Assembly (NCBI RefSeq): GCF_902167635.1
Contig: NZ_CABHMS010000001.1
Span: 744,001 to 808,000 of the forward strand
Reading direction: 5' to 3'
Origin: Chitinophaga vietnamensis
GTDB lineage: Bacteria; Bacteroidota; Bacteroidia; Chitinophagales; Chitinophagaceae
DNA: 64,000 nucleotides
The translations under genes and the position numbers were made by a program. Positions 11,492 to 47,221 of the stretch are shown here, one piece after another. How positions within the stretch are numbered: position 1 is the stretch's first letter; every line of letters begins with the position of its first letter. The notes below the pieces were generated by a model. The model saw nothing but the letters and a program-made list of their open reading frames with translations. It did not search any database and was not told the DNA's origin.

Positions 11492-11528
11492 GCTTATAAG
11501 ATAATCAATTTCCAGCGCTTGATCAATA

Positions 11529-12935: not shown

Positions 12936-12988
12936 GCTGTTTTTTTTACCAATACACCGACAGCAGATACCCGAAAAAGTTTAAAAGC

Positions 12989-13137
12989 ATTTACGGATTT
13001 ATTGATTTACGGATTTACGGATTTACGGATTTGAGAATTTGAGAATTTAAATTTCCATGAAGATTTACATGGAATTTAAATTCTCAAATTCTCAAATCCG
13101 TAAATCCGTAAATCCGTAAATCAATAAATCCGTAAAT
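12989..13137. repeat. Long intergenic palindrome with arms made of GGATTTAC units (copy 1)
   Basis: A 149-bp inverted repeat. The outer 60 bp of each arm pair perfectly and are built of tandem units (ATTTACGG repeated, one ATTGATTT variant, then TTGAGAATT twice); the inner part pairs with a one-base bulge around a short loop near 13060. The right end touches the stop codon of the TPR gene (minus strand): the TAG stop runs straight into GATTTACGG. It would form a very long hairpin in RNA of either strand and lies between two minus-strand genes, so transcription termination or mRNA 3' end protection is a reasonable role. A relative lies at 59206-59317. Confidence 0.9.
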
Positions 13138-13138
13138 C

Positions 13139-15397
13139 CTAAAACAGGCTCCACTTCGGCTTCCATTCTTTCAGCTTCACTGCTGCTGCTTTGTAGTCTG
13201 GCATTTGTTCCGTAATGCGTTTGAGTATTTGTATAGCTTCTTTTGTCTGGTCGTTGTTCTTGTAGGCATTGGCCAGTGCGAAGGCGAAGGTGGCGGTATC
13301 TTCATCCCATGCCCAGTCGTTTTCATCGTTGATAGCGATACATTTTTTACCGTAGCCGATAGCAGCCAGGTTGTTATGCACGCCTACGGCGGATTGCGTG
13401 AGGTAGCCGTAAAGCATGAACAGGTCGGTATCGGTGGTATTGGCATCCCCGGAGAGGATGACATGGCACTCTTGCAGGTCGGGCAATGCGCGTTCGTAGT
13501 TGCCTGTTTTCAGGTAGGCGCGGCCACGGAAATAATATATTTTGGCCTTTGAATAGGCTGGAATTTTATCGAAGCCTCCGATGGAAAGGCGACTGGTAGC
13601 GGCGCCTGCGCAAAGTTCATACTGTCCGTTCTGATAGTATAGCTGCATCAGGTTGAAGTAGGAATCGCTATCGTCGGGATATTTTTCTAAGTGTTTTTCC
13701 AACAACTGTATGCGCTGTGGCAGGTCGTCGCCGGCGATAAGGCCGCGTGCCGTGGTGATCTGGTTTACCTGGTGCTGTGCCGCTTCACGTTCGTCATGGT
13801 CGAGCTGCTCGATCTGTTCGGCAAGACTTTCATGATAGAGCGCCATAAATTGCTCGTACCATTGGAGCGCCCGCTGGGGATCGTTGAGGCCAGACATGCA
13901 GGCGTCGATAAGGAGACTATAAGTGCCCGCAATCCTTTCCGGGTCCAGTATTTCGGCGTATTCGAGCACGGTGGCCCAGTCTTCTACAGCCTGTGCATAG
14001 CGGCCGGCGGAGCGGTTGGCATAGCCTCTTGAATTGATCTGTTCCCAGAAGGGCGACATTTCATAACCGATGGTGTGGATATCGATGGCCTCTTCGTAGC
14101 GTTGCAGGTTGGCGAGGCTGAGACCATAGTTATTGCAGCACATCGCGAAATGATGTTCATGATGCGCCATAGGTGTGCCGCTGTTTTCAAACCAATAGGC
14201 TTTGTATTGCTGTATGGCCCGGCCATAGATCTCGTTCACCAGTTTATCACGGGCGTCGTTATCAGTGTAGCTGAGTACCTGCCAGTCGTCGAGGCTCATG
14301 CCTGCCTCATACCAATCATAGGGCATGTCATGTTCAATGGCGGGCAGGGATGCCGGGAAATGGCCTTCTGTCTTGTATTTCGCATATGCCCAGCGCGCAA
14401 GGATCATGGGCAGCGGTTTCAGCGCAATACCTTTTTCGAAATAGGGTAATGCATTTGCATATTGTTTGGCGAGGAAGAGCGCACGTCCGGTATAGTTCCA
14501 GAAATAACCTTCTTCCGGAAACTGTTGTATCAATTTTTTACCCAGCGATATTTGTTGCAGCCTGATATCTGCCGTATCATCCGATGCCAGTGTTATTTCC
14601 GGGAAAGTGGCCGTGGCATAGCAATACAGGTGGGCCGTGGCTCGTGTGGGTTGCCGCTCATAGGCATGCCGGGTAGATTCGAGGAGAGCTGCAAATTCGT
14701 CGGTGATCTCCGAGAGTGTTTTCGGTATGATGGTGAGCAGGCTGGCAACGAAGTCGTAATCGCCCAGTTCCATGGCCAGCGTGGCTGCCGGCAGGTAATC
14801 GTGCTGCCAGGGAGCATGTGCCAGTGCGGCGTGGTATTGCGCGAGTGCGGCTGCTTTATTTTTCTGATGGGTGTGTAATATTGTTCCCGCGGTATAATGC
14901 ATTCTGCCCAGCAATACATTACGCAGCGGTTGTTCGTCGCGATAGACGGCAGGCGTTTCCGTGATGATCTGTTGTATATCGGCCAATGCGGCGTTGCTAT
15001 CGCCTTGCCGCATGAAGGCCTGGGAGCGCCATTCAAGGTAACGCAGGCGGGCGGCGGGGTCTGCGTCTTTCAGCAGTTGTGCGCAATCAGCGATAGCACG
15101 CGCGGCTTCATTCTCCACATACGGACTGTAAGCGCCGATATACGCCCGGTAAGATAATGCGCCCGCGTGTGTGGGATCAAGCGCCAGCAGCTCGTTGAAC
15201 GCCTTGTAGGCATCTTGCATCAACTGTGAGGCTTGTGTAGCGGAATGTGTGGCGAGCGACAGGTCAAATAAACAGCGCGCCCGGATATAAAGCAGTTCCT
15301 TATTGCCCGGATGCTGCGCCAGTAAGGCATTGGTCGCATTTAATGCAGATTCAAAGTGCTGTTCTTCATACAGCTTTTCAATTTCTTTGATAGTCAT
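13139..15397 (-). CDS. Large tetratricopeptide-repeat protein, function unknown
   Basis: 752 residues, no signal peptide and no membrane segment, so cytoplasmic. Helical repeats of TPR type run through most of the protein; clear ones include IKEIEKLYEEQHFESALN at the N-terminus, YANALPYFEKGIALKPLP in the middle and KTGNYERALPDLQECHVIL near the C-terminus. No catalytic domain is visible. TPR proteins of this kind usually act as scaffolds, but no partner can be named. It is divergent from the unknown gene at 15487, with a 89-bp shared control region. The stop codon TAG is the first three bases of the palindrome at 12989-13137. Confidence 0.85.
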   Translation of the reverse strand: MTIKEIEKLYEEQHFESALNATNALLAQHPGNKELLYIRARCLFDLSLATHSATQASQLMQDAYKAFNELLALDPTHAGALSYRAYIGAYSPYVENEAARAIADCAQLLKDADPAARLRYLEWRSQAFMRQGDSNAALADIQQIITETPAVYRDEQPLRNVLLGRMHYTAGTILHTHQKNKAAALAQYHAALAHAPWQHDYLPAATLAMELGDYDFVASLLTIIPKTLSEITDEFAALLESTRHAYERQPTRATAHLYCYATATFPEITLASDDTADIRLQQISLGKKLIQQFPEEGYFWNYTGRALFLAKQYANALPYFEKGIALKPLPMILARWAYAKYKTEGHFPASLPAIEHDMPYDWYEAGMSLDDWQVLSYTDNDARDKLVNEIYGRAIQQYKAYWFENSGTPMAHHEHHFAMCCNNYGLSLANLQRYEEAIDIHTIGYEMSPFWEQINSRGYANRSAGRYAQAVEDWATVLEYAEILDPERIAGTYSLLIDACMSGLNDPQRALQWYEQFMALYHESLAEQIEQLDHDEREAAQHQVNQITTARGLIAGDDLPQRIQLLEKHLEKYPDDSDSYFNLMQLYYQNGQYELCAGAATSRLSIGGFDKIPAYSKAKIYYFRGRAYLKTGNYERALPDLQECHVILSGDANTTDTDLFMLYGYLTQSAVGVHNNLAAIGYGKKCIAINDENDWAWDEDTATFAFALANAYKNNDQTKEAIQILKRITEQMPDYKAAAVKLKEWKPKWSLF

Positions 15398-15486
15398 GAT
15401 GGGTTATTTATGGATGTTTCTTACTTTCAAATATGCAAGGGTACTAATGGTTTCCGGCGCGAAGTTAATCATTTAAATTTATAGAG

Positions 15487-16152
15487 ATGATCACAGAGAA
15501 AGTTAAACAGGAATTGAAAAGATATGCGCGGCATCTCAGCCTCGTAGAAGATTTCGCCGTAAATGATATACCTGCCGCCTGGACGGAGATACTTCAGGCT
15601 GGCAACCCGGATGCCCTGCGCGCGAAAGTGCTGGCGCTGTGGAAACCTTATGCAGACCGTCTTTCAATGACCATGGACTATATCAGCAAGCACCTTCAGA
15701 TGGCTGCATTGGTGAAAGGAGGCGATGCCTTTTTTCTTTTATACGTATTCGAATATGAAGACGACCTGCGCCTGTACGCAGGCGGTGTGCCTGTTATTGC
15801 GCACGACAAACTGCAATTGTTACCGGAAGATCTGCGCGCATTTTATACCGGCCTTCACAATGGCTGGACCTGCGCCGTATCGCAGGCGCTCGGTCCCCAA
15901 GCCCTGGAAGATATTCAATACCTGGATGCATTTGAATGGGGCATACTGGACGATATAAATGTGAAGAAGCTGGGAATAGCGCTGGATAAGGCTTACAGCA
16001 TATTCAGCAATGCAGGGCCGGGATATCTCTGCTTGCAAAACGAAGGCAGTTATTTCCGGTCTTTCATCTGGTGGACCAACCAGGCGCCCGAACTGAACAT
16101 CGACTTTTGGCCGGTACTGGACGCCTGGATAGAGATCGGTCTTACAAATTAA
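15487..16152 (+). CDS. Hypothetical cytoplasmic protein
   Basis: 221 residues, acidic, no signal peptide or membrane segment. The pattern of a helical N-terminus followed by aromatic-rich beta segments (FFLLYVFEYEDDLRLYAGG, GPGYLCLQNEGSYFRSFIWW) recalls SMI1/KNR4 (SUKH) folds found in immunity proteins, but I do not recognise a defining motif and treat this as a guess. The gene stops exactly one base before the stop of the convergent GH16 gene, leaving no intergenic DNA and no terminator. Confidence 0.75.
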   Translation: MITEKVKQELKRYARHLSLVEDFAVNDIPAAWTEILQAGNPDALRAKVLALWKPYADRLSMTMDYISKHLQMAALVKGGDAFFLLYVFEYEDDLRLYAGGVPVIAHDKLQLLPEDLRAFYTGLHNGWTCAVSQALGPQALEDIQYLDAFEWGILDDINVKKLGIALDKAYSIFSNAGPGYLCLQNEGSYFRSFIWWTNQAPELNIDFWPVLDAWIEIGLTN

Positions 16153-17226
16153 CTATAGCTTACTTACTTTAATAGAAGATGTTTTGTCGTTCATGCTGGC
16201 GTCCAGGCAATCAGCATCCGCGGTGAGTGTGAGGCTTTGTCCCTGGAAATTATCATTTTCATACAGCGTGATGCTGTATCCCGGTGGTACTGTCACTGCG
16301 GAGATGTCGTCATTTGTGATGCCCATGCCGGTCAGCTGGCTGAGCGTGTAATTGCCCGGTGCGAGCCGTTTTGCCCATCCGCCGTAATTACAATCTTTAT
16401 ACACCGTCACTTTATTTAACTGGTAGGCTCTTACATAATCCACATCGAGATAATCGGGATAGGTACCTGCAAAGCGATCGCCACCGAAACCGGTGATCTC
16501 CATGCTGAGGAGCATGAACTCACTTCTCCTCGAAACGGCGCTGTCGCTGCTCCAGCGCACAATGCCATCTACATAGAAAATATAACTGTTAGGCGTCCAT
16601 TCCAGTCCGAAAGTGTGGAAGCCATTGCCGGAGCCGGGGATGGTTTCTTTGGAGCCGGTGGTCCTGTGGTTGACGCCATAGCCGTTCCAGTGCAGGTTCT
16701 GGCGGATGATGTCCGGGCCATTGGCGAGATGATATTCAAACACATCGATCTCGGCGCCATCCACCGTAGGGTTATTGGTGGCGCCCATGGTAGGGGATTG
16801 CAGCCAGAAAGAGCTGTGGGGGCCGAGAGAGCGGTTCATGCGGCACCGCGCCTCGAAGTAACCATACTTTTGTAAATAGGTTTGATGCGTGGCCAGCTGG
16901 CTCGCGGAAAAGTTGTTACCATCGCGCTGTGCGGCCAGCCGCACAAAGCCGGAATCGCTCATGATCACATTTGAGCGCAGGATCAGCGCATATCCCCTCA
17001 TGGTATTTTCGGAACGGTAGCGCCATTTGGTAGTGTCTAATGCTGTGCTGTCAAATTCATCGTGCCATACCAGCTCATAATCGCTGAGCGCTGCCGGCAG
17101 TGCGGCCGGCGTGGTATCGCCCTGGGCTATGGGCTTGCCTTTGATTGGCGCCAGCGAATCCTGGCGGCTGCAGGCCGCCGCCATCGTGGCAGCGGTGAGT
17201 ACAAACAATACAGAAAATTTTTTCAT
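16153..17226 (-). CDS. GH16 endo-glucanase-type lipoprotein with C-terminal beta/gamma-crystallin domain
   Basis: 357 residues; lipoprotein signal ending MAAAC (Cys19). Residues about 48-270 are a GH16 domain: ELVWHDEFDSTALDTTKW at the start and the catalytic motif EIDVFE, with nucleophile Glu159, helper Asp161 and acid/base Glu164. GH16 enzymes cleave beta-1,3/1,4-glucans or galactans. Residues about 272-357 form two Greek-key motifs of the beta/gamma-crystallin type, each with its calcium-site sequence (NDDISAV near 305 and NDKTSSI near 346) and the matching YGGWAKRL and NFQGQSLTL strands. This pairing suggests a calcium-stabilised accessory or binding module. Confidence 0.9.
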   Translation of the reverse strand: MKKFSVLFVLTAATMAAACSRQDSLAPIKGKPIAQGDTTPAALPAALSDYELVWHDEFDSTALDTTKWRYRSENTMRGYALILRSNVIMSDSGFVRLAAQRDGNNFSASQLATHQTYLQKYGYFEARCRMNRSLGPHSSFWLQSPTMGATNNPTVDGAEIDVFEYHLANGPDIIRQNLHWNGYGVNHRTTGSKETIPGSGNGFHTFGLEWTPNSYIFYVDGIVRWSSDSAVSRRSEFMLLSMEITGFGGDRFAGTYPDYLDVDYVRAYQLNKVTVYKDCNYGGWAKRLAPGNYTLSQLTGMGITNDDISAVTVPPGYSITLYENDNFQGQSLTLTADADCLDASMNDKTSSIKVSKL

Positions 17227-17422
17227 CTGAACGTGGTTTTGGGTGAAGGAAAATGTGATGTCAATTTCGGATAATCGCTGCGTTAAGAAGGGGTAAAATC
17301 TTAACTGTCTGAGGGGAAAATTATAAATGCAAATATTTTTTTACTACTTTCGACCTTGAAAATGATTGTCGACCCAACACCCCCATGACCCAACGAAATA
17401 TCTTTATAAAAACGCACGCAGC

Positions 17423-18376
17423 ATGGCATTACCATTTATAGAAATTATTGAATCTGTTACACCCGATCCGAATTTGCTGATGTGGAAATTTGCAGATGAA
17501 GATAAAGAGATCAAGAATGGCGCGGTATTAACCGTGAGAGAGAGCCAGCATGCCCTCCTGCTGAATGAAGGCCAGCTGGCAGACGTGTATGCTCCTGGCC
17601 GGCATACCTTGAAAACGGAAAACATGCCCCTGCTCAGCCACTTGCGCGGTTGGAAATATGGTTTTGAAAGCCCGTTTAAAGCAGACGTATATTTTTTCAA
17701 TACCCATCAATTCGTGAACCTGAAATGGGGAACGCCGGCGCCTGTGCTCATGAGCGATCCACAGTTCGGGCAGGTGCGGGTGAGGGCATTCGGTACTTAT
17801 AATGTGCGCATTGCAGCGCCCGACCGCTTCTTCAAAGAATATGCAGGCACCTATCCGCGCCTCAGTATCATAGAACTGGAATGGCAGCTGCGCGATTTTA
17901 TCGCGCCGAAATTCGGCGAGGTGCTGTCGCTCGCAAAGATATCCGTCGTAGATGCCGCCGGTAACATCTCCGCATTGAACGAAAAAATACAGCCGCTGAT
18001 CCAGCCTTACTTTACCGACTTTGGCCTGGAAGTGACCCGCTTTACCATTACCAGCATCACCCTGCCGGAAGAAGTATTGCAGCAGTATGATAAAGTGACG
18101 GGCATGAACATGGTAACGGACATGAACAAGTTTTCACAATACAGCATGGCCAATGCGATGGATAAAGAAGGTTCCGCCATCGGCGATGCGGCGCGGCAAG
18201 CCGCTGCCATCGGCATGGTTACCAATATGGTGGCCAACAGCGCTACGCCCAGTCCGGCCGCACCTGCCAATGATATCACCGAGCGGCTCAAAAAGCTGAA
18301 GAACCTTTTTGAAGCGCAATTGATAACGGAAGCTGAATACGCCGCCAAAAAAGAAGAACTACTAAAATTGCTGTAA
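17423..18376 (+). CDS. SPFH-domain protein with C-terminal SHOCT motif
   Basis: 317 residues from the ATG at 17423; an in-frame TTG at 17366 would add 19 residues but looks unlikely. The N-terminal 220 residues resemble SPFH (band 7) or virion-core-like proteins (ALTVRESQHALLLNEGQLA, GRHTLKTENMPLL, then RVRAFGTYNVRI). The C-terminus is a SHOCT helix pair (ITERLKKLKNLFEAQLITEA). No transmembrane segment is obvious. First gene of a four-gene run: the next start overlaps its stop by one base (TAATG), which shows translational coupling. Likely a membrane-associated oligomeric scaffold; the process served is unknown. Confidence 0.82.
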   Translation: MALPFIEIIESVTPDPNLLMWKFADEDKEIKNGAVLTVRESQHALLLNEGQLADVYAPGRHTLKTENMPLLSHLRGWKYGFESPFKADVYFFNTHQFVNLKWGTPAPVLMSDPQFGQVRVRAFGTYNVRIAAPDRFFKEYAGTYPRLSIIELEWQLRDFIAPKFGEVLSLAKISVVDAAGNISALNEKIQPLIQPYFTDFGLEVTRFTITSITLPEEVLQQYDKVTGMNMVTDMNKFSQYSMANAMDKEGSAIGDAARQAAAIGMVTNMVANSATPSPAAPANDITERLKKLKNLFEAQLITEAEYAAKKEELLKLL

Positions 18377-18624
18377 TGGAACAGGAACAGAACAAACGGA
18401 TATCCGGCTACCTCGAAAAGCTGAAACAGAAAGCAGTTTCACAGGAACACTATGGCGGAAACGTTAACCCGGAAGAAGCAAAAATGGATATCCGCGATTG
18501 CCCCAAATGCGGCGCCGGCAGGGCTTTCCACAAAGGCCTCACCACCTGCGCCTATTGCGGCTTCTCCTTTATGGACGTAAAGCTCAGCGATGGCGTGCAT
18601 ATCAAAAAGGAAAATAATTCATAG
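18376..18624 (+). CDS. Small zinc-ribbon protein
   Basis: 82 residues. Two Cys pairs, CPKCG and CAYCG, spaced 14 residues apart, form a rubredoxin-knuckle zinc ribbon in the C-terminal half; the N-terminus is charged and helical. Its ATG overlaps the stop of the SPFH gene and it ends 3 bp before the next start, so the three products are made together. Such small zinc ribbons often accompany SPFH/SHOCT proteins as partner or regulatory subunits; the role here is an inference. Confidence 0.8.
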   Translation: MEQEQNKRISGYLEKLKQKAVSQEHYGGNVNPEEAKMDIRDCPKCGAGRAFHKGLTTCAYCGFSFMDVKLSDGVHIKKENNS

Positions 18625-18627
18625 CCG

Positions 18628-19449
18628 ATGTTCGACCTTTTCAAGAAGAAATATAACAATCCCGAATTGCTCGAAGCGCTCAAAACGCAGCAGGAGCGCT
18701 GGTTTACCTTCCTCGATAAGATAGAGGCGCGTATGGATGAGATGACCGCCGCCGCTGTACCGGAACTGCGCGATATCTTCCTCAAAGATGAAGATCCCTA
18801 TAAACGTGCGCACGCTAATATGCTCTCCGGATTGATCGGGCAGGTCAACCAGATGCGGCAGAAAGTGGATGATGCCCTGGAAAATAATATCCATGCTTTC
18901 GTTTATTCCACAGAAGCTACCTTGCCTTCCATCACCTCTTCCGCAGGAACGGAATACCGCAACAAGCTGCATGCCTTTCGCATGGCTTGCCTGAACCGGC
19001 ATTTTATTTTTGATGAAAAGCTCCATCATGCCATCAACCTGCTCAAAGAAGCCGCAGGAGAGCAGGACCTGGAAGCCGAATACCAGCAGGAGTTACAGGC
19101 CTTTGATCGCATCCGTGATAAATTCAGCTGCGTGCAGTGTGGCGGAAATATCACTCTGCCGCAAATGTTTTTCATCGCTACGTATGTTAGTTGTCCGTTC
19201 TGTCATTCGCAGAATACTTTCCTGCCTTCAACCGGCGCGCGCATGGTATTGCACCACGCGCGCAGCCTGGCGGAGCAGCGCACCGCGCATTTGAAAAAGG
19301 CCTATGAGCAGTCGGGCAGTAATGAAATGTACCAGCAATATCTCCGCGCGATGTTCGACGAATGGAACAAGATAGTGCCGGATATGAAAGAAGAAAATGA
19401 GAAATTCTATCAGCGCCTGTTACACGATCACAAGATTTATCATTCCTAA
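18628..19449 (+). CDS. Hypothetical protein with internal zinc-ribbon-like Cys pairs
   Basis: 273 residues, mostly alpha-helical and charged. Near residues 168-192 there are two Cys pairs, CVQCGGN and CPFCHSQN, separated by about 17 residues, which probably bind zinc. No catalytic motif or signal peptide. It begins MFDLFKKKYNNPELLEALK. Third gene of the SPFH operon (3 bp after the zinc ribbon gene, 11 bp before the next). Function unknown, but presence of a second zinc site in the same operon is notable. Confidence 0.78.
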   Translation: MFDLFKKKYNNPELLEALKTQQERWFTFLDKIEARMDEMTAAAVPELRDIFLKDEDPYKRAHANMLSGLIGQVNQMRQKVDDALENNIHAFVYSTEATLPSITSSAGTEYRNKLHAFRMACLNRHFIFDEKLHHAINLLKEAAGEQDLEAEYQQELQAFDRIRDKFSCVQCGGNITLPQMFFIATYVSCPFCHSQNTFLPSTGARMVLHHARSLAEQRTAHLKKAYEQSGSNEMYQQYLRAMFDEWNKIVPDMKEENEKFYQRLLHDHKIYHS

Positions 19450-38286: not shown

Positions 38287-39489
38287 TCACACCAACAACC
38301 CTTCCGATGCCAGCACGCGGTTAGCAATGTTCCTCGTAAACGGCGGGCAATCAGCTGTGCTGCTGCCTCCGCAGAGTGGCAGGTGTATACAGGATTTGCA
38401 GGAGCATCCCGTGGCATACAGGTGCTGTACAAAGGCATCGGTATAATAGGGATGGAAGAGATGGGCAGATGAATATTGATAAAGATGATACAATTCTTCC
38501 GGATGGAGGCGGGCAGGGGTGTGCAATACTTTCACGGAATCAGGTTGCAGTGCGTTGCGCAGCAGGTGCTGCAGGCTGGCCTGCTGATTGGGCTGATACG
38601 TGAAGGAGGCCGCCGGCAGCCATTCACAGCGGATGTTCTGTACCGCCATAAATTGCATCAGCGCCAGTTCCTCTCCTGCGGTAAGGTCGGTGTAGCAGTA
38701 GAGGGTGGCCTGGGCTTGGGCCGACAGCAGGCGCAAAACGTCTGTCATAGCGGGAGTCCAGTTTTTCCAGCAATTGCCGGCTATGAGTAACGTGATGCAG
38801 GCCTGCAGCTTTTCCGGCGGGGTCGTGTTTAGTTGAAACAACAGTTTTTGCAGCATGCCCGTGGTATTCGCGATACGCTTGGGTTGCCACAGGTCTCCGG
38901 TAACGAAATGCAGGTGGTTGTGAATCGTATGTTCCAGTACAGGCACAGTAAGGGCTTCTTCCGGATGCAGGTATAGCAGCTGGAAGGTGAACACCACATC
39001 ATAGGCGGCAGCCAATGCCGGAAGCTGTGCATCCAGTTGTTGCAGCCATTCAAGGCAGGGGAGGTGTTCCTGTAACACCAGTATCAAACGGATGGTATGT
39101 TTGCTCTCTTTCGCTTGCTGTATGGGAAGCTCCCGACAGATCTTCTCAATTGCTGGCGGCAACATACTGGCAGCATCGGAGAGTATGGGCAACAGCAGGG
39201 TAGTGATGTTGGCCGCATGATCCGCCGCAGTAGCCAGTTTGCGCGCTATAATAGTGTCGTTTTCATATTCTCCGGAAGGTACTGTCATCTCATATCTGCT
39301 CAGCTGCTGCTGCAATGCTTCCGGCAAAAGATGGCATTGGCCGGTATGCAGCAGGTCAAGATTTTCACGGGAAATGCGTACGGTATTGCCGGTACGGGTA
39401 CTAAACAGCAGCATGTCTGCCGCAGGGGCATTTTCAAAAGCCGGTATCGGTATCTCCAGTAAAAACCTGGATACTTTCATTCTCATCAT
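38287..39489 (-). CDS. Degenerate radical-SAM/SPASM-like protein, probable RiPP maturation partner
   Basis: 400 residues. The N-terminus (DMLLFSTRTGNTVRISRENL) matches the start of SPASM peptide maturases. Where the radical-SAM cluster motif CxxxCxxC would stand, the sequence is LLLPILSDAASMLPPAIEK, with no cysteine. Strands of a TIM-like fold seem to follow. The C-terminus keeps a Cys-rich SPASM-type tail, TGCSCKSCIHLPLCGG with a further Cys 6 residues on. Bacteroidota are known to encode such pseudo-radical-SAM or SPASM-only proteins in RiPP loci (GG-Bacteroidales and grasp-with-spasm systems); this assignment is by motif, not by search. Its ATG overlaps the stop of the 68-residue peptide gene (ATGA). 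Confidence 0.65.
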   Translation of the reverse strand: MMRMKVSRFLLEIPIPAFENAPAADMLLFSTRTGNTVRISRENLDLLHTGQCHLLPEALQQQLSRYEMTVPSGEYENDTIIARKLATAADHAANITTLLLPILSDAASMLPPAIEKICRELPIQQAKESKHTIRLILVLQEHLPCLEWLQQLDAQLPALAAAYDVVFTFQLLYLHPEEALTVPVLEHTIHNHLHFVTGDLWQPKRIANTTGMLQKLLFQLNTTPPEKLQACITLLIAGNCWKNWTPAMTDVLRLLSAQAQATLYCYTDLTAGEELALMQFMAVQNIRCEWLPAASFTYQPNQQASLQHLLRNALQPDSVKVLHTPARLHPEELYHLYQYSSAHLFHPYYTDAFVQHLYATGCSCKSCIHLPLCGGSSTADCPPFTRNIANRVLASEGLLV

Positions 39490-39692
39490 AAAAAATACAG
39501 GTTATATGGTGCAGGGGGCTGCTCAGAGCCGGTAGCCTGACCTACCGTTTTCGTCCGGCTGTATTGCCGCCAATTGAAGCCACCACAATAGGTAGCCGGA
39601 GTCTCTTTGTTGTCGGCCAGGTTACCTGTCATTACCTTGCTCTGAGGGGTAACAACAATGGACGATATGAGGGATGATATGGATAGTTTCAT
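39486..39692 (-). CDS. Small peptide, candidate substrate of the adjoining SPASM-like protein
   Basis: 68 residues, MKLSISSLISSIVVTPQSKV at the start, then a Cys-Gly-Gly at residues 36-38 in TPATYCGGFNW. The 30 residues after the GG are rich in Gly, Pro, Gln, Thr and Tyr and have no Cys. A Gly-Gly followed by a short variable tail is the usual layout of a leader plus core. Its stop codon overlaps the start of the pseudo-radical-SAM gene by 4 bp, so the two are translated together. I do not recognise a named family. Confidence 0.6.
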   Translation of the reverse strand: MKLSISSLISSIVVTPQSKVMTGNLADNKETPATYCGGFNWRQYSRTKTVGQATGSEQPPAPYNLYFL

Positions 39693-39952
39693 TGTATTAC
39701 GTTGTAAAAATGCATTTTGACCGCCGCCAGTGAAAACTTTTTAGATGTAATGATGCACTTGATCGATGAAATGCGCACGATCTTCTACATGCTTCTATGG
39801 AGGAGCGCCGGGAATGCGGACCGGGATAGGATGCATAATATTTTATCTTAATGTAGTATCAAGAATAATTTGTTATTCAGAGAATCATTTTTTTACTTAT
39901 TTTCCGAGTGTAAAGCACTAGAGCGTAGTGGAACCACAGATTAAATCGACCA

Positions 39953-41113
39953 ATGCTAACCTTTTTTAGACGCAATGTCAACAACACGTCTCCCGGCGCA
40001 CAACGGCTGGCGGACAGGTTTGCTGTTTTCCTGTCGGAAGAAAGCTATACGCCAGGCGTGAGGGTAGCCACACACGCGCTGATGTGGCTGGCCATGGCCG
40101 TCCTCTATACCTTGATGCTGGCTACCAATTTTTCGGAGAAGACCAGCATCACACTGGTATTTGTAGCAAGGAACATCATCGGCTCGATGGGCTTTTTTTA
40201 TTTCACGTTCTACCTGGTGATACCCAGGCTGCTGCTGCGGGGCTATGTGGTCCCGGCCATCATCTGCCTCTGTATACCGTTTTATTTCTGGTCTATCATC
40301 AATTACCTGTCTTCTGTTTGGTTGCTGGAGCGTTTTAATTTCGACAACAAAGCCCTGCGGCACGACGTAGAGCGGGTAGTGGCCGGCGGATGGGCAGGCG
40401 TGTTCAAGCTCACGCATATATTGCGTATATCCATTGCCGTGATCATGACCGTAGCGCCGGCAATGATCATCAAGCTGGTACTGGATTTCATGCGTACCTC
40501 CACCCGCAGCCTGCGCCTTCAGCGCGATAACCTCAACCTGGAAGTGAGCTTTCTCAAATCGCAGCTCAATCCGCATTTTCTGTTCAATACCCTGAACAAT
40601 ATCTATGCATTGTCTATCAAAAACGATGCATTGGCCCCCGATTTGATTATGTACCTGTCGGAAATGATGCGTTATACTTTATACGATTCCAATACCGAGA
40701 AAGTGGCATTGAGCAAAGAGGCAGAATTTCTGAAGAATTATGTGGAGCTGGAGAGCATCCGTTACGGCAAAAGCGCCGATATTTATTTCAAATGTGACCC
40801 GGAAGGGCTGGAAGCCCACCAGATCGCGCCTTTGCTGATGTTCCCTTTCGTGGAGAATGCTTTCAAATACTCGCACAGCACGGCAGTAGGCCATTGCTGG
40901 ATACATGCCGCCATGCATGTGGAGGAAGGCCGGCTCTTTTTCGAGATCACCAACAGCAAGGGCGAAGTGCCGGAAAAGAAAAAAGGTATCGGTGGCATCG
41001 GCCTGGCCAACACCCGCAAGCGCCTGTCGCTGCTGTATCCTGGCAGACATGAGTTGGAAATGACCAATGGCCCGGACGCGTATAAAGTAAAACTTGTGCT
41101 AACTTTGACCTAA
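39953..41113 (+). CDS. LytS-type sensor histidine kinase
   Basis: 386 residues. Four membrane helices in the first 190 residues (LMWLAMAVLYTLMLAT; FYFTFYLVIPRLLL; AIICLCIPFYFWSIINYL; ISIAVIMTVAPAMIIKLVL). The His-kinase block LKSQLNPHFLFNTLNNIYA is near residues 201-219, with the phosphorylated His in PHF; an ATP-binding domain follows (FVENAFKYS, GGIGLANTRKRL). Typical partner of LytTR regulators. The regulator gene starts 9 bp later. Lacks a periplasmic sensor domain of any size, so the signal is probably in or near the membrane. Confidence 0.93.
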   Translation: MLTFFRRNVNNTSPGAQRLADRFAVFLSEESYTPGVRVATHALMWLAMAVLYTLMLATNFSEKTSITLVFVARNIIGSMGFFYFTFYLVIPRLLLRGYVVPAIICLCIPFYFWSIINYLSSVWLLERFNFDNKALRHDVERVVAGGWAGVFKLTHILRISIAVIMTVAPAMIIKLVLDFMRTSTRSLRLQRDNLNLEVSFLKSQLNPHFLFNTLNNIYALSIKNDALAPDLIMYLSEMMRYTLYDSNTEKVALSKEAEFLKNYVELESIRYGKSADIYFKCDPEGLEAHQIAPLLMFPFVENAFKYSHSTAVGHCWIHAAMHVEEGRLFFEITNSKGEVPEKKKGIGGIGLANTRKRLSLLYPGRHELEMTNGPDAYKVKLVLTLT

Positions 41114-41122
41114 CCGTTTTTT

Positions 41123-41872
41123 ATGGACCAGAATATTACCTGTTTAGTGGTGGATGACGAGCCGTACGCAAGGGACCTGATGGAGACCTATATCTCCCGT
41201 ATCCCTTACCTGCAGCCCGTTGCTTTTTGTGAAAAGGCTTTTGACGCGATCGATGTATTGCAGCAACAGCCGGTAGACCTGCTTTTCTCCGATATCCAGA
41301 TGCCTAATATCAATGGCATTGAAATGATCCGTTCACTGAGCAACCCGCCCTTTGTGATCTTTGCCACCGCTTCGCCAGATTATGCCATCGACGGTTTTGA
41401 ACTGGATGCAGTGGATTACCTGGTGAAGCCTATCTCTTTCGAACGTTTCCTGAAAGCGGTGAACAAGGCCAAGAACCACATCCAGCAGAAGAAGCCACAA
41501 CCCGCCGTGGTGGCTCCCAAACCGGTACAGCCCGCCCCCAATCACCTGTTCGTAAAAGATGGTTATAAACTCTCGAAGATACTTTTTGAAGATATTTACT
41601 ATATAGAAGGAATGAAAGATTACATTAAACTGGTATGCAAACAGAAGAATGTGATCACCTATATGCGTATGAAGGCGATTGAAGATGCCTTGCCGGAAGA
41701 CCAGTTCATCCGCATACACAAATCCTATATTGTACGTGTACAGGCCATCAAATCCATTATCGGTAACATGGCTGAGCTGGTTAATAATGAATCGGTAGTG
41801 ATCTCCAAATCGTGTCGGGCAGATCTGAATAAACGTTTGGGTATCACAGGCTTTCAGGATACGGAAGAATAA
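41123..41872 (+). CDS. LytTR-family response regulator
   Basis: 249 residues. Receiver domain 1-120 with the phospho-acceptor Asp in LLFSDIQMP, acidic pair VVDDEP and Lys in VDYLVKPISF. A Pro-rich linker (QKKPQPAVVAPKPVQPAP) leads to a LytTR DNA-binding domain at about 145-245 (LFVKDGYKLSKILFEDIYYI, then FIRIHKSYIV). Forms a pair with the kinase gene just upstream; both are followed by the RiPP genes, so it may control them. Confidence 0.95.
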   Translation: MDQNITCLVVDDEPYARDLMETYISRIPYLQPVAFCEKAFDAIDVLQQQPVDLLFSDIQMPNINGIEMIRSLSNPPFVIFATASPDYAIDGFELDAVDYLVKPISFERFLKAVNKAKNHIQQKKPQPAVVAPKPVQPAPNHLFVKDGYKLSKILFEDIYYIEGMKDYIKLVCKQKNVITYMRMKAIEDALPEDQFIRIHKSYIVRVQAIKSIIGNMAELVNNESVVISKSCRADLNKRLGITGFQDTEE

Positions 41873-42031
41873 TATATATAGAAGAGGCACTGTATTTGTT
41901 TGTTAGCCCTGGCCGGCGTCCGCCCGTTGGTCGAATAAAACCTGCATTATGTCTAATAAAATATGCTGGCCCGCCGGATATGCCGATATTGGGGCTAGAG
42001 AAGAATAACGGAGCCAATTTAAATGTATCAT

Positions 42032-42235
42032 ATGAAAAAATCAACTGCACTCACAAACGCTTCGTCCAAACTTATGCTGGACAAGGAAATCATCTCGAAG
42101 GCAGATGTGATTGCCATCAAGAACCTGAATGCAATGAAAAAAAACAGGGAAGGAGACCATCCTTGGACACTAATCCCAACTACGCCTACAACTGCCGGTG
42201 ACGGCGGCATGAACACATTACTTTCTACCATCTGA
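42032..42235 (+). CDS. Candidate cysteine-free Thr-rich RiPP precursor of the LanB locus
   Basis: 67 residues from the ATG at 42032 (MKKSTALTNASSKLMLDKEI). The KLMLDKEII segment fits the leader box of class I lanthipeptides of Bacteroidota. The C-terminal 27 residues, from Gly41, read GDHPWTLIPTTPTTAGDGG and then MNTLLSTI: seven Thr, one Ser and no Cys. It lies between the LytTR gene and the receiver-only gene, upstream of LanB on the same strand. A Gly-Gly at 58-59 is a second possible cleavage point. With no Cys, thioether rings cannot form on this peptide. Confidence 0.7.
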   Translation: MKKSTALTNASSKLMLDKEIISKADVIAIKNLNAMKKNREGDHPWTLIPTTPTTAGDGGMNTLLSTI

Positions 42236-42292
42236 TTTGTTATTCCATCACCCACCCTTCTCATCCACCAGCTGTTTACCTGCGAAAAGATC

Positions 42293-42649
42293 ATGCAATA
42301 CAGGTGCGCCATAATAGATGATGAGCCGCTGGCGCTAGATATACTAGAGAGCTATATTCAGCGTACAAGCCACCTGGAATTGATTGCAAAAACCAATCAA
42401 TTCGATACAATCGTGCGGTTGGTGAATGAGAAGCGGGTAGATCTTGTATTAATAGACCTGAACATGCGCGGCATCCGGCTGGACAGCCTGCGGCACTTAT
42501 TGGGAAAAGAGTGCCGGTTTATCCTGGTAACAGCGTATCCGCGCGATGTTGTGGAAGATATGGGAGGTTATAACGGTCACGGCTATATTGCCAAGCCGGC
42601 CAGTTATAAACGATTCATCAGGGAAATTGAACGTTTGACGACCAATTGA
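42293..42649 (+). CDS. Receiver-only response regulator protein
   Basis: 118 residues that make up one CheY-like receiver domain: acidic pair at Asp9/Asp10 (AIIDDEP), phospho-acceptor Asp55 in LVLIDLNMRG, Thr/Ser switch in ILVTAYP and Lys in YIAKPASYK. It has no output domain, unlike the LytTR protein upstream. Such single-domain proteins work as phosphate sinks or as binding switches. It sits between the precursor and the LanB gene, so it may couple the two-component signal to peptide maturation; this is an inference. Confidence 0.85.
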   Translation: MQYRCAIIDDEPLALDILESYIQRTSHLELIAKTNQFDTIVRLVNEKRVDLVLIDLNMRGIRLDSLRHLLGKECRFILVTAYPRDVVEDMGGYNGHGYIAKPASYKRFIREIERLTTN

Positions 42650-42925
42650 GGGTTATTTCGTCGTGAATACCTGTTGTTTTGTCGAAAATAATTTAGCTCC
42701 TCCGTTTTTTACAAAAACTTGCACCAGGAACGAAACTGGTCCCTGTAGATCATCCATCTTGACATATATGAGCCAGGTCCGGCTGGATGGCAGGGTAGTG
42801 CGGGGTATAACGTTCTAGCATTGGTCTGTAAAAAACGTCCGGTATCCCCGGAGCCCCCTGTGCTACACCTGCCATCAACCGGGCGGGCAGTAAGGAGCCA
42901 CATTAGATAAAAATATTGCTTGGCT

Positions 42926-45900
42926 ATGCCTGAACTAGTGTCACCAGGTTTTTACCTGCTTCGTCTGCCTTTGCTTCCGTTAGAACGGGCCACAGCCCCC
43001 GGAAGAACCGCGCACACGTTTGCAGCAGACATAGCAGCTTCCTATGAAAGCCCTATTTTACAAGAAGCCGTCTACCTGGCCAGCCCCGCCCTGTACGACG
43101 AAATGATGAAGTGGCTGGGCAGCGCCGACCGCGCCGACGCCCGCCACCAGAAACTGGTACTGGCATTGTATCGTTACCTGCTCAGAATGAGCACACGCGC
43201 TACGCCCTATGGCCTCTTCGCCGGTTGTGCCCCCGGCGAAATTACACAGGCCCCGTCCCGGCTGGAGGTCAACACTACCCGTACCATGCACCGGGTAACA
43301 CGGCTGGACATGAATTACCTTTCGGAGATCGCTGCCGCATTGGTACGCATCCCCGAAGTACGTTCGCAGATCAGGTTCTTTCCCAACAACAGCCTGTATC
43401 TCAACGGAGAATCTTACCGCTATTTCGAATATCAGCAGCCGGACAACAAACGGCGATATTTCCTGAGCGGATTTACCTGCACGCCCTACATCGCAGCAGT
43501 GATGGTAGCCGCTACCAACGGCGCCTACCTGTCGCAACTCGTAGAAGTGCTCCGGCAACAGGATATTGCCGAAGAGGAAGCAGCCAACTTCTTGCAGGTG
43601 CTGATAGACAACCAGATATTAACAGCTGAAACCGATCCTGCTGTTACCGGCGGCGATTATCTTTCCAGGATGATCCTGCTGCTACAGCGGTGTTCTCAGC
43701 CACCCGCCGTTATTAAGCCCTTATTGGCCATACAGCAGCTGCTGGAGCAACAGCAGCATGGTGTAAGCCGATACCAGGCGATCAGGGAAATGTTGCAAGT
43801 TCATTTCCCTGATATTAACGGCAAAGACTTCATCCAGTCCGACCTCTTCTTTACCCCACAGGCCAATCAGCTCAATAGCGCTACCATACAGCGTTTGGCA
43901 GATCAGCTTGAAAAACTTTCCATCCTCGCACAACCCGCCCCCGGCGCCGACCTGGACACGTTCAAACAACAGTTCGTCCAGAAATATGATCAGCGTGAAG
44001 TGCCGCTCATGCAGGCGCTCGACAGTGAGTCCGGTGTGGGATACGGCATTGTGAGTGGCGACAACTCCAGCTACACACCATTGATTGATGACCTGGTGAT
44101 ACCCGGAATGCCTGGCGCAGCCAGCATTCCATGGGATCACTATCACCGGCTGGTATTACAGAAATTCCTCGCCGCGCAACGCCAGGACGATACCGAGATC
44201 GTGATCACCCCCGAAGAACTGGATAGCCTCGCCGCCAAACGGGAACGGCCATCCATGCCGCCTGCTTTTTTCCTGCTCGGCTCTCTCGTAGCTACATCGT
44301 CCGCCGCTATGGATGCCGGCGATTTTTCCTTTGTGCTGAAATCATTTGCAGGCCCGAGGGCCTTGTCGCTCCTCGGCCGCTTCGCCGCCAGCAACGCCGC
44401 GCTGGCGCAGCAGCTGCAAACATATGCGCTACAGGAACAGGCGCAAACCCCGGACCGCATCATCGCCGAAATTGTTCATCTGCCCGAAGGGCGTACCGGT
44501 AATGTACTACTACGTCCACGGCTATACGATTATGAGATACCTTTCCTCGCTAATGCCAGTGTAGATCCCGAGCATCAGCTACCGCTGAGCGACCTCTATG
44601 TGAGCGTGCGCGATCAGCGCGTGATACTGCGTTCGCGCCGCCTCGGCAAAGAAATTATTCCCCGGCTTACCAGCGCCCATAACTATGCGCAGGGCCTGCC
44701 GGCTTATAAGTTCCTCTGCGACCTGCAACAGCAGCAGGAAGCGCGCAGCCTGAGCTGGGACTGGAGCTTCCTCAGCGAGCAGCCTTTCCTGCCTGCCGTA
44801 CGCTACGGAAACATTGTGCTGAGCCGCGCCCGGTGGCTGCTCGATCAGAAAGAATACCAGGCCTTGCTGGATCAGCTCACGCCGGAAGCAGCCTTGCTGG
44901 CCCTGTGGGAGAAGTATAACGTGCCCGGCTATACGTTGTTGTCGGAAGGCGATAATGAATTGCCGATCGAGATCAGCAATCCTTATGCACAATTGCTGGT
45001 ATTGGAAAAATTGAAGAAAGGAAGCGTGTTGTTGTTTGCCAATCCTTTCCAGGCAGATGCCAAACTGGTATCCGGTGATGAGGGCGCCTACGCCAACGAA
45101 GTGATCATTCCATTCGTCAACAAGGCATATGTATATAAGGCGGCCGTACCGGCCACTCCGCCGGCAGAGGCCTTGCAGCGTGTATTTGCGCCTGGTAGTG
45201 AATGGCTCTATGCCAGGATCTATTGCGGCCCGAAATGGATGGACAAACTCCTCACACGCGAGCTGCAACCACTGCTGGCCCGTTTGCAACAATCGGGATT
45301 GGTCAAACAATGGTTCTTTGTACGCTTCCAGGATCCTGACCATCATCTGCGCATCCGCATGATGCCATCCTCGCAGGCCGCTACCGGTGTGATCATACAT
45401 CGCCTGCAGGAACATTTTCATGCCTACATCGAAAATGATGTAGTGAAGAAACTGCAATACGATACTTACATCCGCGAAACAGAACGTTATGGCGAACATA
45501 CCATGGAACTGAGCGAGCAATTCTTTTGTTACGACAGCGAGGCCGTGATACAGTTGCTCGGGTTGATTCCGGGCAGCGAAACCAGCGACCGCTGGCTGTT
45601 TGCGCTGAGAGGAGCCGATGACCTGCTCACTGCTTTCGGTTTGCAGGAAGAAGAGAAACTGGCGCTTTGCCGCACACTCCATACCCGCTTTTTTAAAGAG
45701 TTCAATGGCGATGATGCTTTGTTGTTACAATTGAATCATAAATACCGTCATCATACAAGGCTGATCTTTGCGATGCTCCAACACAAGCCGGAGATGATGT
45801 TTCCTTCGCCGCAGGCAAGCGCTGTATTTGAACAACGCATACTAAAGTTAACGGATATACGAAAACAGCTGGAAACTATGATGGACAAGGGTATTATCCA

Positions 45901-46063
45901 TCGCAGCGCGCACCTGGATCTGCTGCCGCACTACCTGCACATGTTCATGAACCGCCTGTTCATCGCCAATGCGCGCTTGCACGAACTGGTGATCTATCAT
46001 TATCTCATCAGATATTATACATCACGCGTAGCGATGAAACATCAGAACTTAAAATCCAATTAA
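42926..46063 (+). CDS. Full-length LanB-type lanthipeptide dehydratase
   Basis: 1045 residues from the ATG at 42926 (an upstream TTG at 42920 is not needed). N-terminal glutamylation domain with the family block RATPYGLFAGCAPGEI at 90-105; central domain; C-terminal thiopeptide-type elimination domain (SpaB_C) from about residue 755 (EWLYARIYCGPKWMDKL, QWFFVRFQDPDHHLRIR). LanB enzymes use glutamyl-tRNA(Glu) to dehydrate Ser and Thr of a precursor peptide. Both halves are in one chain. No LanC cyclase or exporter follows; the next gene is an unrelated peptidase. The promoter is not obvious in the 276-bp upstream gap. Confidence 0.9.
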   Translation: MPELVSPGFYLLRLPLLPLERATAPGRTAHTFAADIAASYESPILQEAVYLASPALYDEMMKWLGSADRADARHQKLVLALYRYLLRMSTRATPYGLFAGCAPGEITQAPSRLEVNTTRTMHRVTRLDMNYLSEIAAALVRIPEVRSQIRFFPNNSLYLNGESYRYFEYQQPDNKRRYFLSGFTCTPYIAAVMVAATNGAYLSQLVEVLRQQDIAEEEAANFLQVLIDNQILTAETDPAVTGGDYLSRMILLLQRCSQPPAVIKPLLAIQQLLEQQQHGVSRYQAIREMLQVHFPDINGKDFIQSDLFFTPQANQLNSATIQRLADQLEKLSILAQPAPGADLDTFKQQFVQKYDQREVPLMQALDSESGVGYGIVSGDNSSYTPLIDDLVIPGMPGAASIPWDHYHRLVLQKFLAAQRQDDTEIVITPEELDSLAAKRERPSMPPAFFLLGSLVATSSAAMDAGDFSFVLKSFAGPRALSLLGRFAASNAALAQQLQTYALQEQAQTPDRIIAEIVHLPEGRTGNVLLRPRLYDYEIPFLANASVDPEHQLPLSDLYVSVRDQRVILRSRRLGKEIIPRLTSAHNYAQGLPAYKFLCDLQQQQEARSLSWDWSFLSEQPFLPAVRYGNIVLSRARWLLDQKEYQALLDQLTPEAALLALWEKYNVPGYTLLSEGDNELPIEISNPYAQLLVLEKLKKGSVLLFANPFQADAKLVSGDEGAYANEVIIPFVNKAYVYKAAVPATPPAEALQRVFAPGSEWLYARIYCGPKWMDKLLTRELQPLLARLQQSGLVKQWFFVRFQDPDHHLRIRMMPSSQAATGVIIHRLQEHFHAYIENDVVKKLQYDTYIRETERYGEHTMELSEQFFCYDSEAVIQLLGLIPGSETSDRWLFALRGADDLLTAFGLQEEEKLALCRTLHTRFFKEFNGDDALLLQLNHKYRHHTRLIFAMLQHKPEMMFPSPQASAVFEQRILKLTDIRKQLETMMDKGIIHRSAHLDLLPHYLHMFMNRLFIANARLHELVIYHYLIRYYTSRVAMKHQNLKSN

Positions 46064-46393: not shown

Positions 46394-47221
46394 ATGAAAA
46401 CTCAAGCATTTCTGTTTCTTATCTGTCTTTTTGCAGGCGCCACGATGGTATCCTGTCAGAAAGATCATTCGCAGAGCAAAACTGATGGACCTAAAATCGC
46501 AGATGCGGTGTTAGCCCAAATCAAAGCAAAAGGTTTCAGTACGTCGAATGTACACGCAGTAAACGGTGGTTACCTGGTAGAAGGTGACATCTTTTTAAGC
46601 GACAAAGATCTCGCTAAAAAAGGTGGTGTAAATACCAAAGTCAGAGTAGCTAAAACCGAACAGTATTCCACCAATAACCTGGTAAATGGCTTACCTCGCA
46701 CTATTACGGTGAAAGTGGTGAACCTGGGTTCTGCTTTCGTGCAGGGTACCGACCTGGCTATCCAGCGCTATAATGCATTGGGCCTGCGTTTGCAGTTCCA
46801 GCGTATCACCAGCGGCACAGCGGATATCACCATTCAGGGCTTTAACCAGGGCCCCAGCGGTGGTTATATTACCCTGGGATCATCCGGTTTTCCTGATGAC
46901 TACGGCAACCCTTATTACCTGGTACAGATGAATACCAATTCAGCTGCCTATGGCAGCAACCCGAACGTATATTATGTTGGTTCCGTGATCCAACATGAGA
47001 TCGGCCACTGCATTGGTATGCGCCACACGGATTATATGGACCGTTCCTATAGCTGCGGCGGCGATCCGATAGATGAAGGCGACGGCGGTGTGGGCGCTGT
47101 ATGGATCGATGGCACACCCAGCGGTCCCGATGCCAACTCCTGGATGCTCGCCTGCTCCAACGGCGGCAACCGTACTTTCAACAGCAATGATATCATTGCT
47201 TTGAATTACCTCTATCAATAA
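46394..47221 (+). CDS. M57-type dual-action HEIGH metallopeptidase, lipoprotein
   Basis: 275 residues; lipoprotein signal ending ATMVSC (about Cys21). Catalytic zinc motif HEIGHCIGMRH at residues 201-211, as in the peptidase M57 family. The N-terminal part has a domain of unknown type. The chain ends in GNRTFNSNDIIALNYLYQ. Location is surface or periplasm. It is next to the LanB locus and could in principle be a leader peptidase, but a 330-bp gap separates it and M57 proteins occur widely outside RiPP loci. A terminator follows at 47251. Confidence 0.88.
   Translation: MKTQAFLFLICLFAGATMVSCQKDHSQSKTDGPKIADAVLAQIKAKGFSTSNVHAVNGGYLVEGDIFLSDKDLAKKGGVNTKVRVAKTEQYSTNNLVNGLPRTITVKVVNLGSAFVQGTDLAIQRYNALGLRLQFQRITSGTADITIQGFNQGPSGGYITLGSSGFPDDYGNPYYLVQMNTNSAAYGSNPNVYYVGSVIQHEIGHCIGMRHTDYMDRSYSCGGDPIDEGDGGVGAVWIDGTPSGPDANSWMLACSNGGNRTFNSNDIIALNYLYQ

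Follow-up and report, generated by a model that had tools for sequence, protein, structure and literature searches.

Nisin production is autoinduced, with NisRK controlling its own operon. Lanthipeptides were surveyed by Walker et al. (2020; PMC7268733) within seven genes of proteins carrying LanC domains, precursors without Cys not being counted as lanthipeptides, and LanM partners lacking Cys are mentioned in the same paper. Lone LanB enzymes had been noted by Marsh et al. in 2010, with Microscilla marina encoding five LanB homologues, one of them near a LanC (PMC3091789). The present work concerns a window of 64,000 nucleotides from Chitinophaga vietnamensis (assembly GCF_902167635.1, contig NZ_CABHMS010000001.1, positions 744,001 to 808,000), that is, the whole stretch of DNA analysed, numbered from its first letter. 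It carries a five-gene cassette encoding a LytS-type sensor histidine kinase, a LytTR response regulator, a small Thr-rich peptide, a receiver-only response regulator and a full-length LanB dehydratase. We consider it likely that this is a self-contained, autoregulated cassette for a ribosomally synthesized and post-translationally modified peptide (RiPP), making linear dehydropeptides that plausibly serve as signals. Being LanC-anchored and Cys-requiring, the survey of PMC7268733 could hardly list such a cassette, and searches of an open-access library turned up no published description of it.

The list of open reading frames (ORFs) and the domain matches confirm the order of the five genes, all on the + strand. 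The LytS kinase (39953..41113, 386 residues; PF06580, E=7e-26) has four transmembrane-like segments by hydropathy and, by motif reading, an intact H-box (LNPHFLFN), and is followed by the LytTR regulator (41123..41872, 249 residues; PF00072 and PF04397). The precursor peptide of 67 residues (42032..42235) begins at a conserved ATG at 42032, its mechanically called ORF starting at 42023. Next come the receiver-only protein (42293..42649, 118 residues; PF00072, E=5e-11), in which D9, D10, D55, T80 and K101 are invariant in an alignment of 12 members, and the LanB (42920..46063, 1047 residues, start TTG at 42920 or ATG at 42926; PF04738 and PF14028).

An earlier note, made from the sequence of the window alone, had called this gene order unusual and proposed looking for it in relatives, where it does recur. 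In a LanB search covering 59 genomes, each of the 11 nearest homologues (43-54%) stood in the same five-gene setting without LanC. Applied to 79 genomes of the genus, a receiver profile of 12 rows returned 23 members with at least 164 bits, distributed over 22 genomes, the next match scoring below 100 bits; the 11 further loci obtained in this way have the same gene order (at L105 the LytTR and peptide genes are masked by an overlapping frame). All five genes thus stand in order at 23/23 loci, with the peptide always between LytTR and receiver, and since each of the 23 receiver loci has such a peptide at the same position, the peptide ORF is not a chance occurrence. The neighbourhoods covered about 8 kb on each side as a rule (L052 stops at a contig end just past LanB). 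Clustering of genes of at least 90 residues placed only LytS, the response-regulator family (LytTR plus receiver) and LanB at all 23 loci, the next families reaching 11/23, and no transporter, protease, immunity gene or cyclase common to all loci was present in the stretches read. The receiver protein appears to be rare outside the genus, its own genome being the sole match at E<=1e-26 among 395 genomes of the phylum (with at most 11 candidates scored per genome and no second member of the genus named among the rows listed), which is all that this draw shows. When named genomes were scanned with the same profile, nothing above 41% identity appeared among the 593 stretches listed, a result without bearing on how widely the protein is spread.

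The precursor had been described in the earlier note as Thr-rich and free of Cys, a description that stands with its boundary redrawn. Instead of the last 27 residues, the core was delimited by the conserved leader, L-x-L-x-K-E-I-I-x-K-A-D...N, which in this copy reads LMLDKEIISKADVIAIKN and leaves a core of 36 residues with 7 Thr, 1 Ser and no Cys. Across the 23 peptides the leader is of the L-x-L-x-K type, L14 and K18 being invariant and L16 present in at least 90% of the rows. Leaders are conserved and cores vary strongly, with Thr making up 157 of 762 core residues (20.6%) against 32 of 702 leader residues (4.6%), and Ser 12.5% against 8.4%. Comparison of related copies gave ratios of nonsynonymous to synonymous differences (pN/pS) of 0.06-0.5 in 10 pairs whose lineages overlap. 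The same note had raised the possibility that Cys-containing precursors are the constant partners of LanB; Cys occurs in none of the 23 cassette cores, and the single Cys of the L044 peptide lies in its leader. Beyond its own 23 members, which it recovers by construction, a profile of these peptides had no match in the 79 genomes below E=3.6e-4.

The LanB matches PF04738 (E=7e-154) and PF14028 (E=3e-65), each over nearly the full length of the model. Both the glutamylation and the elimination domain carry the key residues, as in class I lanthipeptide enzymes, judging from the 12 of the 23 cassette LanBs that were aligned. Four sequences in the PDB match the enzyme, namely 9g04, 5ehk (a lantibiotic dehydratase) and two NisB entries. 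The first is MadB by its PDB code, and the MadB residues essential for glutamylation and elimination are listed in the paper describing it (PMC12241602). In query numbering, the glutamylation residues R89, R93, T95, D130, D308 and R487 and the elimination residues R813, R856 and H1007 are invariant in the alignment, the assignment of H1007 resting on a low-scoring second NisB segment. Y86 is also invariant and corresponds to Y80 of NisB, whose Y80F mutant is inactive (PMC4341554). These residues bear on the idea that the enzyme is a PEARL-like glutamyl- or aminoacyl-transferase that performs no dehydration. Clusters lacking Cys and LanC have indeed yielded pearlins and pyritides (PMC11002830), but the LanBs of those products are short or truncated, whereas the cassette enzyme has the PF14028 elimination domain with its Arg/Arg/His set invariant in the aligned sequences, and we regard a transferase of this kind as very improbable. 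An AlphaFold model computed from 12 sequences was set aside (mean pLDDT 62.8, pTM 0.35).

No match to PF05147 (LanC) occurs inside the window, in agreement with what had been remarked at first sight. The 6.31 Mb genome holds three further LanBs, each adjoining a LanC (L009-L011), and four PF05147 matches in all. One of these is on the same contig, about 52 kb from the cassette LanB and beside another LanB, and the fourth sits in an 890-residue frame away from the LanB matches. Linkage of LanC in relatives, also raised in the earlier note, was assessed with a profile made from three LanCs that the genome itself encodes; at 22 of the 23 loci no LanC-like gene lies in the stretch read, and none of the 23 has an intact one. 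The reading proposed in that note, a LanB that dehydrates Thr without ring closure and so gives a linear dehydro-peptide, is supported by these outcomes. The 52 other LanB loci were sorted by the presence of LanC within 7 kb and of LytTR within 3.5 kb. In this comparison, in which the leader filter was set post hoc and some candidates may be spurious (the second ones of L099 and L100), 41 of the 45 LanC-linked loci without LytTR gave candidate precursors, every one Cys-bearing, and four gave none. The remaining seven loci, without LanC or linked to LytTR, gave candidates in six cases, all with Cys-free cores, and none at L093. Two of these loci, L096 and L097, combine LytTR and a Cys-free candidate with a LanC-like gene lacking all three aligned ligands, and L097 also has a nearby small ORF with one Cys. 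At L090 a lone LanB (8445-11771), with neither LanC nor LytTR in the stretch read, is followed by a Cys-free peptide ending in HQPTTTVISTSH. Three distant LanBs (27-29%; L099:5733-11503, L100:6353-11676, L101:8432-13629) have LytS/LytTR genes downstream, genes resembling C39-type ABC and HlyD proteins by eye upstream, and small peptides with Cys-free cores, and may represent a second LanC-less LanB type.

In a tree of 75 sequences, the LanBs of the 23 cassettes group together in a single clade (SH-aLRT 100), nested among LanC-linked LanBs. The tree was a quick, midpoint-rooted one with flagged long branches and model caveats, and a descent from LanC-linked enzymes depends on the rooting. A constraint holding all 29 LytTR-linked LanBs together was rejected (approximately unbiased test, p=0.00015), which suggests more than one origin for the pairing of LanB with a LytTR switch and Cys-free cores.

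In the control region ahead of the peptide lies the direct repeat TTGGTCGAA-N12-TATGTCTAA (41927..41956, + strand), a 9-12-9 arrangement proposed as the LytTR operator of the peptide; 9-bp direct repeats 12 bp apart have the spacing of the LytTR family (PMC6193735). The pattern TTnGTCGwr-N12-TwnGTCTAA stands about 88-111 nt ahead of the peptide start, strictly at 22/23 loci and with one mismatch at L049, giving the peptide promoter a putative regulator-type site as expected for two-component autoinduction. A second repeat, TTCGTCGTG-N12-TTTGTCGAA (42657..42686, + strand), precedes LanB, and its like occurs with no or one mismatch before LanB at seven of the 23 loci (the window, L049-L053 and L107). 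When a wider pattern was run over the organism's own 6.3 Mb genome, the two repeats just described, ahead of the peptide and of LanB, were the only perfect matches. The five others, with two mismatches, are no more than chance would give, the reversed pattern having 15 matches under the same limit against a total of 7. Scans upstream of the peptide for the canonical LytTR/AgrA consensus and for a Bacteroidota -7 box gave no useful result. At L049 a further repeat copy with one mismatch (position 2853, - strand) precedes a gene for a 799-residue protein without NCBIfam match, whose family adjoins the cassette in L049, L051, L053 and L107.

The strongest indication of what the cassette is for comes from a related module without LanB. 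Among the best 34 candidates per genome in the 79 genomes, 28 belong to the LytTR subfamily (61-100% identity), namely those of the 23 cassettes and of five LanB-free modules (L114-L118, five genomes) that contain the nearest relatives of LytS (48%) and LytTR (62-64%). In these modules the LytS/LytTR genes are divergent from a unit of peptide, receiver-only protein (34-35%) and a carboxypeptidase-regulatory/weak TonB-plug gene, as at L114 (11240-11449 on the - strand; 11716-13568 and 13734-18692 on the + strand). The peptide leader is LSLNKEIISK and matches profile positions 1-23 with E=3.6e-4 to 5.1e-4. The module adjoins a fatty-acid/polyketide-type operon with AMP ligase, PPTase-like, FabA-like, ketosynthase and FabG-like genes, families being searched for L118 alone. 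In each module, repeats with two mismatches precede both the peptide unit and this operon, and the 20 kb read hold neither LanB nor LanC near it. A signalling or regulatory role is preferred mainly because the peptide/receiver/LytS/LytTR module also exists without LanB; together with the lack of any gene beyond the five common to all loci, this speaks for a product that is a signal or regulator in preference to a self-sufficient antibiotic.

The latter would be an ordinary secreted antimicrobial, with LytS/LytTR acting as an induction circuit resembling that of nisin and NisRK. LanB products are commonly antimicrobial, and the combination of variable cores with conserved leaders would suit such a function, as would the C39-type ABC exporter that lies beside the cassette at L049 together with a gene that is HlyD-like by eye (no NCBIfam match). 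Yet the 23 loci have just the five genes in common, with no exporter, immunity or protease gene among them, and an antibiotic leaves the LanB-free module unexplained, making this rather unlikely in our view.

For the linear signal that we favour, the following sequence of events can be proposed. LytS would sense something at the membrane and activate LytTR, which would bind the 9-12-9 repeats and raise expression of the peptide and, in some members of the family, also of LanB. LanB would then recognize the L-x-L-x-K leader and dehydrate Thr and Ser of the core through tRNA-Glu-dependent glutamylation and elimination. Since the core has no Cys and there is no cyclase, no internal thioether ring could form, and the product would stay linear, with dehydrobutyrine (Dhb) and dehydroalanine (Dha) residues and a mass shift of at most 8 x -18 Da for this copy. 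Finally, the product may feed back on LytS/LytTR or on the receiver, closing the loop, and the receiver-only protein may damp or gate the phosphorelay. A bolder version can be put forward only tentatively: that a Gram-negative genus uses linear dehydrobutyrine peptides as autoinducing signals; its signalling module would have recruited LanBs repeatedly, each time with Cys-free Thr-rich cores, and would control a fatty-acid/polyketide-type operon in other species.

Several observations weigh against the proposal of a linear signal. No product of the cassette is known, and Cys is present (CGCG) in the peptide of the LanB-free module. The repeat pattern was written after the sequences had been seen by eye, which makes its presence at the peptide a description; its recurrence ahead of LanB and the genome-wide scan are the more independent part of this evidence. 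Among the glutamylation residues, D130 and D308 weigh little, because dehydration in vivo was near normal in NisB with D121A and D299A (PMC4341554). At L113 a LanC-like gene (E=1e-9 with the own-genome LanC profile) lies 6.4 kb from the cassette on the opposite strand; it lacks both aligned zinc cysteines, keeps the aligned His, and matches PF05147 over only 66 of 350 positions. It belongs to a divergent unit (L113:1118-5227, - strand) under a repeat with two mismatches, together with a gene resembling a SPASM N-terminus by eye and one for a 581-residue protein without Pfam match. Loss of zinc ligands alone is no proof of inactivity, because 12 of 54 aligned LanC-like genes have no CHG, including the sole LanC at L011, L081, L086 and L091; despite this, the precursors at L011, L081 and L086 are Cys-bearing (TGCGxGxSTC type). 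Moreover, the genome has LanC elsewhere, and its unlinked action with an added thiol is conceivable. The dehydrated residues might also be trapped later, by Lys or the N-terminal amine, by free thiols, or by such a LanC with a small thiol, and the product would then lose its linearity or its unsaturation. Such trapping would fit the Lys, Arg or Asn that many cores retain close to the leader junction, as well as those LanC genes, but no enzyme for it is common to the 23 loci, and we judge it improbable.

Export is the remaining weak point of an extracellular signal. A C39-type exporter is lacking at 22 of the 23 loci and no leader protease was recognised, so that export of the peptide stays unexplained without a linked exporter, which weakens the case. 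The peptide could instead be an intracellular regulator that is never exported, acting for instance on the receiver or on LytS as decoy or activator. The missing exporter agrees with this (L044, L048 and L104 have an ABC protein of 602-604 residues, 29-30% alike), as does the adjacency of peptide and receiver gene at all loci, LanB-free modules included. Leaders joined to variable cores are, however, usual for exported RiPPs, and a peptide confined to the cell seems unlikely to us.

Other genes around the cassette are shared more sparsely. Divergent from LytS in the window are a small ORF (39486..39692, - strand, 68 residues, no family match), a weak candidate for a second precursor, and the gene of a SPASM-like protein (38287..39489, - strand, 400 residues). 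One of the two-mismatch genomic matches to the repeat lies before this pair (39741..39770, - strand). The SPASM-like protein has a C-terminal Cys cluster by eye and no Pfam match, its match to TIGR04280 is weak (E=0.001, far below the model cut-off), and the CxxxCxxC radical-SAM motif was not seen in its sequence. Homologues adjoin the cassette at L111:14944-16176, L112:3848-5080 and L045:15058-16191. The gene and the small ORF preceding it stand divergent from LytS behind a degenerate repeat at 4/23 loci, and similar repeats with one or two mismatches precede the divergent unit at L111, L112, L045 and L113. It is possible that the two form a second, accessory modification unit of the same regulon. 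Two families found downstream of LanB at 11/23 loci, dehydrogenase-like and cytochrome c-like by eye, look like species synteny, and the M57 peptidase at 46394-47221, downstream of the cassette, was dropped as a candidate leader protease, its family not being among those common to the loci.

If the proposal is right, full-length LanBs make a class of linear dehydropeptides from a minimal set of five genes, which could be handy for obtaining dehydrobutyrine peptides, and the Bacteroidota possess a peptide signal circuit that is directly testable through its 9-12-9 repeat. Surveys anchored on LanC or requiring Cys are built in a way that passes over such clusters. Among the described systems, the class I lanthipeptides of Bacteroidota (pinensins; L-x-L-x-K-x5-L leaders) share with the cassette the full-length LanB and the leader type (Walker et al. 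2020, PMC7268733), whereas the cassette has no linked intact LanC and no core Cys. The cassette thus represents a new form of class I RiPP biosynthesis, one that lacks both of these defining features of lanthipeptides. Pearlins and pyritides resemble it in having a LanB homologue, no LanC and a Cys-free precursor, and differ by their short or truncated LanBs (PMC11002830), the cassette enzyme being one chain with both domains and with no further enzyme shared among the loci. Goadsporin and the thiopeptides likewise undergo LanB-type dehydration without lanthionines, but they need YcaO azoles and a split LanB (PMC10676384), while the cassette loci have no further shared family, no YcaO-directed search having been made. 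In its regulation, the cassette resembles nisin autoinduction and also LytTR autoregulation through direct repeats, with a predicted control of its own operon by the regulator and, as in the latter, 9-bp repeats 12 bp apart (PMC6193735). It departs from both schemes in uniting a LytS/LytTR pair with a receiver-only protein and a predicted non-lanthionine product.

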